This document shows positions 8,102 through 27,215 of a stretch of DNA of 36,959 nt, piece by piece; position 1 is the first letter of the stretch, and the number at the start of each line of letters is the position of its first letter. The translations under genes were made by a program, and so were the position numbers. The notes beneath the pieces are model-generated. The model did no database searches, was not told the origin of the DNA, and saw only the letters and a list, made by a program, of their open reading frames with translations. The stretch is from Anaerolinea thermophila. GTDB taxonomy: Bacteria > Chloroflexota > Anaerolineae > Anaerolineales > UBA4823. Location: positions 1 through 36,959 of the forward strand of contig DYGV01000018.1 of NCBI GenBank assembly GCA_020724505.1. Reading direction: 5' to 3'.

Positions 8102-8992
8102 TCACCCGCGTCGACGCGAGATGGATGTTTGTGCTGAATGGGGATCGTTTCTAGCTAAGACTGAACTATTTAGCCGATTTGGCTGGCGGGCAGCAAGCGG
8201 GAGCGGCGAATAGACTGGCTCTTCTAGTTGCGTCTCTTCGTAATCCAACGACTCGACGAGCGAAGGCCTTTGTGCCTGATGGGTGGTTGGGGAAGTGGAA
8301 CGGGAGACGGTAGCACGTTCGATGGAGCCGCGTGTTCTCATAGATGGGGTGGGCGCTCTAACATGGCTGGTCGGTAAGCGCGTAGAATGAGACTGCGTCA
8401 GAGGTTGCGTTGTATGTATAGAAGCGCGCGGGGTTTGCGTGAGTAAAACCCTACGAAGTTGCTCATCGTTCAAGATGAAGAGGCGTTCTCCGGCGATAGA
8501 GAACGCGCCAATAATCAGAACGCGGATCAACCAGATCAAGACTGCTACAAATACTGGTCCAACTCTCAGCATAGTCTCGCGCCCAATAACGGCCTCGCCA
8601 GCCGTCTGATGATTAAGGATCGCCAGCGAAACACCCCACCAGGTGAGGATCGCATTCATGGTAGCTGCTAAGAGCCAGGCGCCAAAGAGAAACCAGTTTT
8701 CGTTATGAGCCTGACCATCTTCTGGGGTGAACAATCGGGCTATGCCGGCAAAATCTATACCGCAGAAAGCAATAGCCAGAATAGTAGCCCAACGAATTCC
8801 CATGAATTTCAAATCCCCTAGTAGATCGGTCAAGGCGTAATCCGTCGTGCCGTAATTGAAGATTTCGAAGGCGAAGAGAGCGGTAGTGATCAATGCGCCA
8901 AACACCAATCCTCGATGAATGCGAAATCGTCCGGCCAGATACAATCGTTCGAAACGGTTAACAAGGTCGGTCGGATAAGGGTTTACAGCCAT
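8102..8992 (-). CDS. Multi-TM membrane protein of unknown function with Ser/Thr/Pro/Arg-rich C-terminal tail
   Basis: ATG at 8992 preceded by GGAGGAGGTGCCT; MAVNPYPTDLVNRFERLYLAGRFRIHRGLVFGALITTALFAFEIF...; about four hydrophobic helices then a ~120-aa polar tail. Confidence 0.75.
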   Translation of the reverse strand: MAVNPYPTDLVNRFERLYLAGRFRIHRGLVFGALITTALFAFEIFNYGTTDYALTDLLGDLKFMGIRWATILAIAFCGIDFAGIARLFTPEDGQAHNENWFLFGAWLLAATMNAILTWWGVSLAILNHQTAGEAVIGRETMLRVGPVFVAVLIWLIRVLIIGAFSIAGERLFILNDEQLRRVLLTQTPRASIHTTQPLTQSHSTRLPTSHVRAPTPSMRTRGSIERATVSRSTSPTTHQAQRPSLVESLDYEETQLEEPVYSPLPLAARQPNRLNSSVLARNDPHSAQTSISRRRG

Positions 8993-9050
8993 AGGCACCT
9001 CCTCCTGACGTTGAGATACGTCAGGATAACCAACTAATTTGCGCACATTT

Positions 9051-9079
9051 AATATAGAACAATTGTTCTATATTGTCAA
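9051..9079 (-). promoter_or_regulatory. Sigma70 promoter containing a LexA/SOS-like palindromic operator
   Basis: Minus strand TTGACA (9074-9079), 17-nt spacer, TATATT (9051-9056). A perfect 24-bp palindrome AATATAGAACAATTGTTCTATATT spans 9051-9074 with core GAAC-AATT-GTTC at 9057-9068. Confidence 0.65.
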
Positions 9080-9286: not shown

Positions 9287-11980
9287 ATGCAGGGAAAAAC
9301 TAAAATCAGCTCAATTCTTCGCACAGTCCTGGCGACAATCCTATTTATTTCTGCGTGTAAGCTAGCAGATGCCCTGGTTGCACCATCCACTCCAGCTGAA
9401 GTTATTTCGGAGACTGCCCTAGCCGTTACAACTTCGCCATCTGTGGCGGTTGAGAAGACGGCAACGCCGCAGCCCGCATCGTCGGGAAGTTCAGGACCGC
9501 GATTTGCAGCCTTCGAAGAAACCCCGGGCGATGTCTCCCCGCAAATCAAGCACGAGACTATTGCTGCCGACCTTGGGAATGTCCAAAACCCTTTTGCGCT
9601 GTCCACAGCTCAAATCGAACATCTGGCGCGTGATGGTTTTGTCATCACTCCAGGAAACGAGAAAGAGTTTTTCTCTCTTTATGAAAAAGCGCGATATGAC
9701 AATGTCCCCATCTTTGCGACATCAGATGCATTGTTGCATTCATATCATTTACTATTTGACAAAGTGCTACGCACCGCTGAACTGGAGCGTTTCATCCCGA
9801 AGCTGCGCAACTTTAATCGGGCAATGCTCATCGAGGCAGACAACCAATATCAACGACTGGTTGGTACAAGTTGGGAGGATGCCGCACGCCGAACGGTTGC
9901 TTATCTCGGCGTGGGCAGCTTGTTGTTGGATTCGCAAGCGGTTATTCCACCTTATGCCAGCGAACTGGTTTCTCAGGAGATAGCCCTGATACAGTCAGCC
10001 AGCGGCATCTTGCCTTCCCCTATCTTTCCAGGACTGGCGTTTGGCGAAGATTATACCCAATACATCCCACGTGGACACTATACGCACAATGAGGAACTCA
10101 AAGCGTATTTTCGCTGCATGATGTGGTATGGGCGGATGACTTTTCGTTTGAAAGGCGAAAATACTGAAGTGGGGCGTGCGGAAACGCGTTCGGCGCTTTT
10201 GCTTATGCAAGCGTTGCGGTATGCGCAGGTAGATGGAAAGCCGGCAATCGAAGCCTGGGCTGAGCTTTATGCGCCGACGGTGTTTTTCATTGGACGTAGC
10301 GATGATCTTACGGTGATGCATTATAACGATGTGATGGACATGGTTTTTGGCGAAAACGCCGACCTATCCGTGGTGGCAAATGACAGCAAGTTAGATCAAT
10401 TCATTGATCTGGCATATCAATTGCCCCCGCCGCGCATCCTGGGAATTGTGATCAGTGATACAGAAGATGAACAACAAGCAACTAAGGGACTGCGCCTGAT
10501 GGGTCAACGGTTTGTCCCCGATGCATATATCTTTCGCCAATTGATCTATCGCAATGTAAGCACGCGAGAAAATCGGCGAGGTTTGCCGCGTGGGTTGGAT
10601 ATCTTGGCTGCAATGGGTTCAGAACGCGCTTATCAACATTTGGAGGCACTTGGCGATACTGGTTTTGAAAACTATCCACAGCAAATGGAAAAAATTCGCT
10701 CCTGGTTGAGCGGGCTGAGCGTGGATGAATGGACTGAGACGTTATATAACACCTGGCTATACTCTTTCTTCCCGCTGCTGCAAATTCCCACAGAAGGCTA
10801 CCCTATCTTCATGCAATCACCTGGCTGGTTGGATAAACAGCTCAATACTGCATTGGGCAGTTGGGCGGAGCTGAAACATGATACGATCCTGTACGCAAAG
10901 CAGGTATACGCCGAGATGGGCGGCGGACCGCCGCCTCCGCCGCCGGTACCGCCGCGTGGTTATGTGGAGCCGGTTCCGGTGTTCTATGCTCGCCTGGCGG
11001 CGCTAACCGCTATGACGCGCACTGGTCTGGAAGAGCGCGGCTTGCTAAATGAAATTGATCGGGAGAGTTTAGTAAAACTCGAAGAGCTAGCGCGCGCATT
11101 CCAGGAAATATCAGAGAAAGAGCTGCGTGGTCAACCCTTGACCGATGAAGAGTATGAGCGCATCCGCTACTTTGGCGGCGAATTGGAAGATATTGTGATG
11201 CGTTCCGCGGATGTTGAGAGCGCCGGTGATGCCATTGGCAATCCGGTGTTTATGACCGAAGACCAACAAGCAGCGGTAATAGCCGATGTAGCAACGGATC
11301 CCGATCCCACCGGAACCGGCGCAGGTGGACCGGTGGTGTTAGAGGTGGGTGTGGGCAGGATCAATGAAATTCATGTAGTAGTCCCTGTGGTGAATCCGGA
11401 TGGCTCGTTGCAGTTACAGGTCGCAAAAGGCGGCGTCTTTTCGTATTATGAATTCCCCTGGCCGGCAGAGGATCGCTTGACGGATGAAAAATGGCGTGCA
11501 ATGTTGGAGCAAGGCCAGGCGCCGCCACTGCAAGAATGGATGAGCAGCTTTTTTGTGCCAGAAGGTGAAAACAGCCTGTGGCGGGATGTTATCCGTCAGT
11601 TTCAGAATCAAGTGACACTGATGTATTGGAGTCCCCTGGATGCGGTTAATTCCTTTTATGAAGCAACCGAATGGTATCGCTCAGAAATCACGCAACTGGC
11701 TTCTCAGCGGCAGTATGTAGGCCATCAACTGGTGAGTGTTGATTTCCGCTCCTTTGATCGGCAGAACGAACGCACGGTTGTGGTCACTGCACGCGAAGTG
11801 TGGCAAGATACCCTGCATAGCTTTACGGGCGATTATCCGAATTATGATGAGCCCGCGGTTGCAAGTCGCGGTCCTTACACCCTGGACGTAACTTATACAT
11901 TGGTTCAAGTCCCAGAGCAAAGCGGCTTTGTCTGGCAGGTTAGACTGGCAGTTTACGCTAACCAACTACCCGGATGGTGA
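9287..11980 (+). CDS. DUF3160 domain-containing putative lipoprotein
   Basis: N-terminal lipobox-like LFISAC; DUF3160-like LARDGFVITPGNEKEFFSLYEKARYDNVPIFATSDALLHSYHLLFDKVLR; 897 aa. Confidence 0.8.
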   Translation: MQGKTKISSILRTVLATILFISACKLADALVAPSTPAEVISETALAVTTSPSVAVEKTATPQPASSGSSGPRFAAFEETPGDVSPQIKHETIAADLGNVQNPFALSTAQIEHLARDGFVITPGNEKEFFSLYEKARYDNVPIFATSDALLHSYHLLFDKVLRTAELERFIPKLRNFNRAMLIEADNQYQRLVGTSWEDAARRTVAYLGVGSLLLDSQAVIPPYASELVSQEIALIQSASGILPSPIFPGLAFGEDYTQYIPRGHYTHNEELKAYFRCMMWYGRMTFRLKGENTEVGRAETRSALLLMQALRYAQVDGKPAIEAWAELYAPTVFFIGRSDDLTVMHYNDVMDMVFGENADLSVVANDSKLDQFIDLAYQLPPPRILGIVISDTEDEQQATKGLRLMGQRFVPDAYIFRQLIYRNVSTRENRRGLPRGLDILAAMGSERAYQHLEALGDTGFENYPQQMEKIRSWLSGLSVDEWTETLYNTWLYSFFPLLQIPTEGYPIFMQSPGWLDKQLNTALGSWAELKHDTILYAKQVYAEMGGGPPPPPPVPPRGYVEPVPVFYARLAALTAMTRTGLEERGLLNEIDRESLVKLEELARAFQEISEKELRGQPLTDEEYERIRYFGGELEDIVMRSADVESAGDAIGNPVFMTEDQQAAVIADVATDPDPTGTGAGGPVVLEVGVGRINEIHVVVPVVNPDGSLQLQVAKGGVFSYYEFPWPAEDRLTDEKWRAMLEQGQAPPLQEWMSSFFVPEGENSLWRDVIRQFQNQVTLMYWSPLDAVNSFYEATEWYRSEITQLASQRQYVGHQLVSVDFRSFDRQNERTVVVTAREVWQDTLHSFTGDYPNYDEPAVASRGPYTLDVTYTLVQVPEQSGFVWQVRLAVYANQLPGW

Positions 11981-26173: not shown

Positions 26174-26737
26174 TTAAATCTGCATGTAACGGTAACAATC
26201 CATTGTGTGATCGTTGACCATCCCTGTAGCTTGCATGTGGGCGTAGCAAATCGTGGAGCCAACAAACCGAAAGCCTCGTTGAGTTAGATCCTTGGACATT
26301 GCATCCGATTCAACTGTGCGGGCGGGAATCTCATCTACCGATTTCCAGGCGTTCTTTCTGGGGATGCCATCAACGAACTGCCAGATGTAGCGATCAAAAC
26401 TCCCAAATTGTTCTTGAACTTTCAAAAAGGCGCGGGCGTTTGTCACTGCAGCCTGCACTTTTAGGCGATTGCGGATAATTCCAGGGTTGGAAAGCAATTC
26501 GGCAATCTTCTGTTCGGTATAGCTAGCGATTACGATGGGATCAAAATTATCGAACGCCTGGCGGAAATTCTCGCGTTTATATAAAACTGTTCGCCAGCTC
26601 AATCCTGCCTGAAATCCTTCCAGAATTAAAAATTCAAATAATAAGCGATCATCATGTACCGGAACACCCCATTCTTGGTCATGGTATTCACAATATACTG
26701 GATCTTCGATGGGCACCCATGCACACCTGGTCAACAT
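26174..26737 (-). CDS. tag: DNA-3-methyladenine glycosylase I
   Basis: RCAWVPIEDPVYCEYHDQEWGVPVHDDRLLFEFLILEGFQAGLSWRTVL ... FRFVGSTICYAHMQATGMVNDH. Confidence 0.95.
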   Translation of the reverse strand: MLTRCAWVPIEDPVYCEYHDQEWGVPVHDDRLLFEFLILEGFQAGLSWRTVLYKRENFRQAFDNFDPIVIASYTEQKIAELLSNPGIIRNRLKVQAAVTNARAFLKVQEQFGSFDRYIWQFVDGIPRKNAWKSVDEIPARTVESDAMSKDLTQRGFRFVGSTICYAHMQATGMVNDHTMDCYRYMQI

Positions 26738-26762
26738 CTTTTACTCACAATCCTCGTGAAAG

Positions 26763-27140
26763 TCATTTGGCCGGATTGGAAGGTCCAGCCCATCCAAAGC
26801 GTTTTAGATCAATGCGTCCACGTTCATCAAAGAATACGCCTTCAGCTTCAAGAAGTTCACGCTGGCGTGACTCGCCGCCGCCGCGCAGACTAATCTTACC
26901 CTGGGCGTTAACCACACGTTGCCAGGGCACCCCTTCAGGGCAAGATGCCATGGCTCCGCCCACCCACCTCGGCGAGAATGCGCGATAATCGTTCTCTGTC
27001 ATGCCAGGTGGAGGTGGGATGAGCGCGGCAATTTGACCGTAGGTGGCGACTTTTCCAACAGGTATCTGCTTAACGATCTCCCAAACTTGCAGTTTGAAAG
27101 CCATTGGATCCGGCGGAGAGGAGTAAGCGGGCGTCATCAA
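26763..27140 (-). CDS. Alkyltransferase-like protein (ATL, MGMT-fold with Cys replaced by Trp)
   Basis: VWEIVKQIPVGKVATYGQIAAL...RWVGGAMASCPEGVPWQRVVNAQGKIS: PWQR in place of the PCHR motif of O6-methylguanine methyltransferases. Confidence 0.9.
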   Translation of the reverse strand: MMTPAYSSPPDPMAFKLQVWEIVKQIPVGKVATYGQIAALIPPPPGMTENDYRAFSPRWVGGAMASCPEGVPWQRVVNAQGKISLRGGGESRQRELLEAEGVFFDERGRIDLKRFGWAGPSNPAK

Positions 27141-27186
27141 TCACATCCTCCAAAACCAAACTTCAGATCAAGCAAATGACACAGGT

Positions 27187-27215
27187 ACTATACACGAACG
27201 TTTGTTCAGAGTCAA
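27187..27215 (-). promoter_or_regulatory. Sigma70 promoter with SOS/LexA-like box in spacer, upstream of ATL-tag
   Basis: Minus strand TTGACT (27210-27215), 17-nt spacer, TATAGT (27187-27192). The spacer contains GAACAAACGTTC (plus GAACGTTTGTTC, 27196-27207). Confidence 0.7.

Follow-up and report, generated by a model that had tools for sequence, protein, structure and literature searches.

The closest described counterpart of the operator reported here is the DinR/LexA box of Firmicutes and Actinobacteria, which has the same GAAC-N4-GTTC half-sites and spacing and likewise occurs at lexA, recA and repair genes (PMC3323433). That source mentions the Sphaerobacteraceae solely as one of the groups that have multiple chromosomes. 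Among the known SOS division inhibitors are membrane proteins whose target is the synthesis of the septal wall (PMC13396833, PMC4211646 and PMC6851548). YneA of B. subtilis, which has one transmembrane (TM) segment and an extracellular LysM domain, blocks FtsW and targets septal wall synthesis (PMC13396833), and SidA of Caulobacter and SosA of S. aureus are further SOS membrane division inhibitors (PMC4211646 and PMC6851548, respectively). In Streptomyces, which are also filamentous, the known regulators of SOS division were reported to have no clear homologues (PMC9380542), and lineage-specific solutions are therefore to be expected. Neither a LexA regulon for Anaerolineae nor an SOS division inhibitor for these bacteria was found in the literature, which is weak evidence because subscription journals were mostly outside the search.

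The window (the whole stretch of DNA analysed, 36,959 nt) contains a candidate operator and promoter upstream of a membrane protein gene; the features are listed in Table 1. Read directly, the palindrome AATATAGAACAATTGTTCTATATT consists of the plus-strand parts AATATA, GAAC, AATT, GTTC and TATATT. On the minus strand, TTGACA, a 17-bp spacer (9073-9057) and TATATT form a sigma-70-like promoter, with the operator core located in the spacer and the outer arms of the palindrome overlapping the -10 box. Both the perfect 24-bp palindrome with a GAAC-N4-GTTC core and the TTGACA-17 bp-TATATT promoter around it had been proposed in the initial annotation and are exact in the sequence. The start of the open reading frame (ORF) listed at 9046 was merely the longest-ORF choice, and the ATG at 8992, which is preceded by a strong ribosome binding site and lies 64 nt from the operator core, was taken as the start of the gene. 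Across the operator, a plus-strand gene for a DUF3160 protein (9287-11980) starts 218 nt away.

Table 1. Coordinates of the operator, promoter and gene features in the window.
Feature	Position	Strand	Basis
24-bp perfect palindrome, candidate LexA operator	9051-9074	.	Sequence, conservation, same core at lexA
Operator core GAACAATTGTTC	9057-9068		Inside the 24-bp palindrome
-35 element TTGACA	9074-9079	-	Sequence; TTGACA consensus in relatives' profile
-10 element TATATT, within palindrome	9051-9056	-	Sequence; 17-bp spacing
Ribosome binding site AGGAGGT	8997-9003 (about)	-	Sequence
Four-TM membrane protein, 296 aa, basic Ser/Thr/Arg-rich tail	8102-8992	-	ORF, family alignment, structure model, topology
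Second LexA-type box GAACGTTTGTTC	27196-27207	.	In minus-strand promoter TTGACT-17-TATAGT
Alkyltransferase-like gene (ATL/MGMT DNA-binding domain) behind second box	26763-27140	-	Pfam PF01035
tagI, 3-methyladenine DNA glycosylase, downstream of ATL gene	26174-26737	-	Pfam PF03352

The pattern GAACN4GTTC occurs twice in the window against 0.35 expected (at least two in 6 of 100 shuffles) and 47 times in the genome (4.1 Mb) against 36 for a reversed control pattern, with most of the 47 sites inside ORFs. Motif counting alone was uninformative and was set aside as evidence; the bare eight-base core is not rare in the genome, and chance was therefore judged by position and conservation. In a first set of relatives, the exact core was found 23-185 nt before the ATG of the membrane protein homologue in 28 of 29 loci. 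A second scan took in 80 named loci from Anaerolineales and further Chloroflexota, with the isolates Thermanaerothrix daxensis and Ornatilinea apprima among them, and yielded 75 usable upstream regions. In 63 of these the exact core lies no more than 250 nt before the start, whereas shuffles gave an expectation of 0.2. Because some genomes belong to both sets, the two are not independent. Nine of the 12 regions without the exact box, those of both isolates among them, have a one-mismatch version. Starts were picked by ribosome-site score on gene calls that were the longest ORFs, the data are mostly metagenome-assembled genomes, and related genomes do not supply independent loci.

The enrichment was confined to this motif, as only GAAC/GTTC was strongly enriched among the 256 four-base palindromes at spacing 4 (63 occurrences, the next having 7), and among spacings 0-11 only spacing 4 was enriched. 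The exact core was also present upstream of 33 of 730 neighbouring ORFs, mostly divergent neighbours with a common intergenic region. The operator-promoter profile of the relatives is approximately TTGACAAAATAGAACAWWTGTTCTATAWT, and their left arm is usually AAAATA; the conserved operator is therefore approximately TAGAACAWWTGTTCTA and not the full 24 bp. A paralogue in the same genome (contig C12) has the same promoter, with TTGACAAAATAGAACTTATGTTCTATATT. That the palindrome arose by chance and has no function, as the nearly equal genome-wide frequencies of the bare core and the control pattern might suggest, is already refuted by the conservation result, to which the promoter of the paralogue adds, and the probability left to it is negligible.

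The operator was compared with those of lexA, recA and repair genes, the upstream regions of lexA and recA being located by match coordinates. The lexA gene of the source genome carries GAACATTCGTTC (C120:2602), 63 nt before its start, and the exact box is present in 29 of the 30 lexA loci of the lineage, nearly all arranged as TTGAC-box-TAT, while a control palindrome was found in none of the 30. The recA gene of the source genome has a one-mismatch box, TTGACAGCTAGAACGTTTGTGCTAGACT, at the same promoter position. The form GAAC-N4-GTGC occurs in 18 of 30 recA promoters of the lineage and is apparently a conserved recA-specific variant. A different operator at lexA or recA, which the initial annotation had named as one finding that would speak against LexA, was looked for, and what was found was the same operator at lexA and a single mismatch at recA. 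The second box in the window, which had been said to control DNA-repair genes, lies in the ATL-tagI promoter, and a box is present at the ATL-tagI orthologue in 12 of 30 genomes, the source genome included. Compared with the DinR/LexA box, the operator of this lineage differs in its extended AT-rich arms (TA-box-TA), which are tied to the -10 element, and in the recA variant. For imuB-type polymerases (imuB/dinB), the source genome gave no IMS-domain match.

Two side observations concern these genes. The ATL gene and tagI behind the second box (26174-27207) form a putative SOS-controlled DNA-alkylation repair pair. The recA loci (L078, L196-L220) share the conserved asymmetric box in place of the exact palindrome, and this box is perhaps a weaker operator that keeps up basal recA expression.

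Short palindromes are used by other regulators too, a GAACGAACGTTCGTTC site precedes a TetR-like gene in the source genome (L011), and two box-bearing genes encode LuxR-type helix-turn-helix (HTH) proteins, all of which would be compatible with a regulator other than LexA that recognises a similar half-site. What speaks against such a regulator is that nearly every lexA locus has the same core with the same spacing and place in the promoter, that the recA box differs by a single substitution, and that ATL-tagI lies behind the same box; such a regulator is very improbable. The LexA reading of the initial annotation is supported by these boxes together with the conservation upstream of orthologues, which extends across the order. 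Judged from sequence, the membrane protein gene is with high probability controlled by LexA, and computationally this point is close to settled. The analysis defines a LexA operator for the order Anaerolineales, for which lexA, recA and repair genes served as controls. LexA would bind between the -35 and -10 elements, and bound LexA would therefore block RNA polymerase; upon DNA damage, RecA-triggered self-cleavage of LexA would free the promoter. Both steps, occlusion of the promoter by the repressor and its RecA-dependent release, are proposed here by analogy with the known LexA mechanism.

Homologues of the membrane protein were found in 116 of the 151 genomes searched, often two per genome, and the family, which has no Pfam or NCBIfam entry, is presented here as a faithfully conserved predicted SOS target. 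When 251 genomes sampled from the phylum were searched with a profile, the family turned up only in the order and in two genomes of the same class. Several genomes without a lexA match still carry the family; the comparison of lexA presence with family presence was uninformative, as most genomes without a lexA match are incomplete drafts.

The protein had been annotated from the sequence as a multi-TM protein with a Ser/Thr/Arg-rich tail and no recognised function. Hydropathy and charge predict four TM segments, and the N- and C-termini are predicted to lie inside because the N-terminus and the tail are basic. Searches of Pfam, NCBIfam, PADLOC and the PDB (by sequence) gave no match, and PHROGs gave nothing consistent; weak matches in the domain, family and structure searches came from one or two family members each. 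An AlphaFold2 model built with 66 sequences has four long helices, a short N-terminal helix and a disordered tail, with moderate confidence (pLDDT about 65-89 in most blocks), and a Foldseek search with this model returned no match below E 0.4. The family alignment shows strong conservation of the TM core, and charged or polar positions that do not vary lie within or close to the TM segments (E43, N46, D80, R86, N113 and R157). The tails vary, and a PxY motif, usually within RPEPTYHP (EPTYHP-like), is kept in 67 of 76.

Clustering of genes over the loci identified a gene for a membrane-anchored SLT lytic transglycosylase, a putative peptidoglycan-cutting enzyme, next to the membrane protein gene in 42 of 77 loci; for six of these neighbours, the domain assignment was confirmed with Pfam. 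In 26 loci the SLT gene is downstream on the same strand, with most gaps 5-50 nt, and in 16 it is divergent and lies across the operator-bearing intergenic region. The linkage is recurrent and was first recognised in the present analysis. About half of the loci, some because contigs end, are without an SLT neighbour, and the window copy is one of them. In genome G066 (locus L241), lexA is divergent from a box-bearing operon consisting of a tagI homologue, the membrane protein gene and the SLT gene, and in genome G053 the membrane protein and SLT genes are about 2 kb from lexA. In a tree of the family, the window copy stands beside the C12 copy, which has a divergent SLT gene, on a long branch. 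SLT-linked and unlinked copies of the same genome are close in several places of the tree (L105/L110, L106/L117, L109/L092, L137/L127 and L090/L089; the bootstrap had not fully settled), a pattern that suggests duplication or gene conversion on repeated occasions.

Farther out, the loci contain what we take, by sequence recognition, to be a two-component pair, secE-nusG-rplKAJL and, in some, HerA/NurA-like genes. The sensor kinase and response regulator were considered as partners and rejected as neighbours only, because they lie on the opposite strand and belong to a conserved region around the ribosomal operon.

The predicted LexA control and the adjoining membrane-anchored transglycosylase, often in one operon, could also be read as SOS-triggered lysis, in which the membrane protein would form a pore like a holin, the SLT protein would be its endolysin, and damaged cells would lyse or release DNA or vesicles. 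The endolysin of phage lambda is likewise a transglycosylase, and phage holin-endolysin pairs resemble the present module in having a membrane protein beside a lytic transglycosylase, with expression predicted on DNA damage. The module differs from them in its chromosomal housekeeping synteny with secE-nusG-rpl genes, in its TM-anchored SLT protein and in the lack of a consistent phage family match in PHROGs; the membrane protein is also bigger than typical holins, its larger core is strongly conserved and contains polar residues that do not vary, its tail keeps a conserved motif, and one copy is in an operon with tagI facing lexA. Lysis is therefore considered improbable.

Somewhat better placed, yet still unlikely, is a damage-induced channel, transporter or sensor (for example for ion flux or for nucleotide or drug export), for which the linkage to SLT would reflect shared regulation only. 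The invariant residues in or near the TM segments would suit such a function, as would the window copy and the many others without an SLT neighbour. On the other side, the SLT gene recurs on both sides of the membrane protein gene in independent arrangements, and no transporter fold was found by Foldseek with the moderate-confidence model.

The most likely reading is that the membrane protein belongs to an SOS-induced envelope module that serves as a division or cell-wall checkpoint. Like YneA, SidA and SosA, the family consists of inner-membrane proteins under LexA, as predicted here from operator and topology, and the likeness extends to the family member of L241 in the operon facing lexA. 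It differs from them in its four TM helices, its long cytoplasmic tail, its transglycosylase partner and its size, and has neither a LysM nor another Pfam domain; sequence, domain and Foldseek searches gave no homology or fold similarity to known division inhibitors. The differences in TM number, size and sequence exclude it from the YneA/SidA/SosA group, and by analogy it plausibly works like these proteins.

In the proposed envelope module, the product would be a four-helix inner-membrane protein whose TM core binds to a partner in the envelope, while the short conserved motif of its predicted cytoplasmic tail recruits a cytoplasmic partner. The inner-membrane protein would act together with the wall hydrolase, the transglycosylase acting on the cell wall, and the module would couple DNA damage to remodelling of the cell wall or septum. 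The envelope is probably remodelled upon DNA damage in these bacteria. An envelope or cell-wall role of the membrane protein is moderately probable, and a delay of division specifically falls somewhat short of even chances. A further, tentative proposal is a checkpoint of a new type found order-wide, in which the tail motif would hold or release the SLT protein or the division machinery and damage would lead to controlled cutting of peptidoglycan. With the SLT partner and the tagI operon facing lexA, a tie between DNA damage and wall growth or division becomes directly testable in largely uncultured bacteria.

The regulon was assembled from the searched sites only. Two small LuxR-HTH proteins (L021:208 and L024:2990; contigs C105 and C145) have a promoter-embedded box of the same kind, and the SOS regulon may therefore include transcription factors. 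Another box lies 18 nt before the gene of a 297-aa protein without a Pfam match (L032:2967, contig C174), which we take, by eye, to be FtsK-type ATPase-like. Further boxes were observed before genes for an FAD-linked oxidase (L038), a metallo-beta-lactamase-fold protein (L045) and a protein resembling TcmP (L005).
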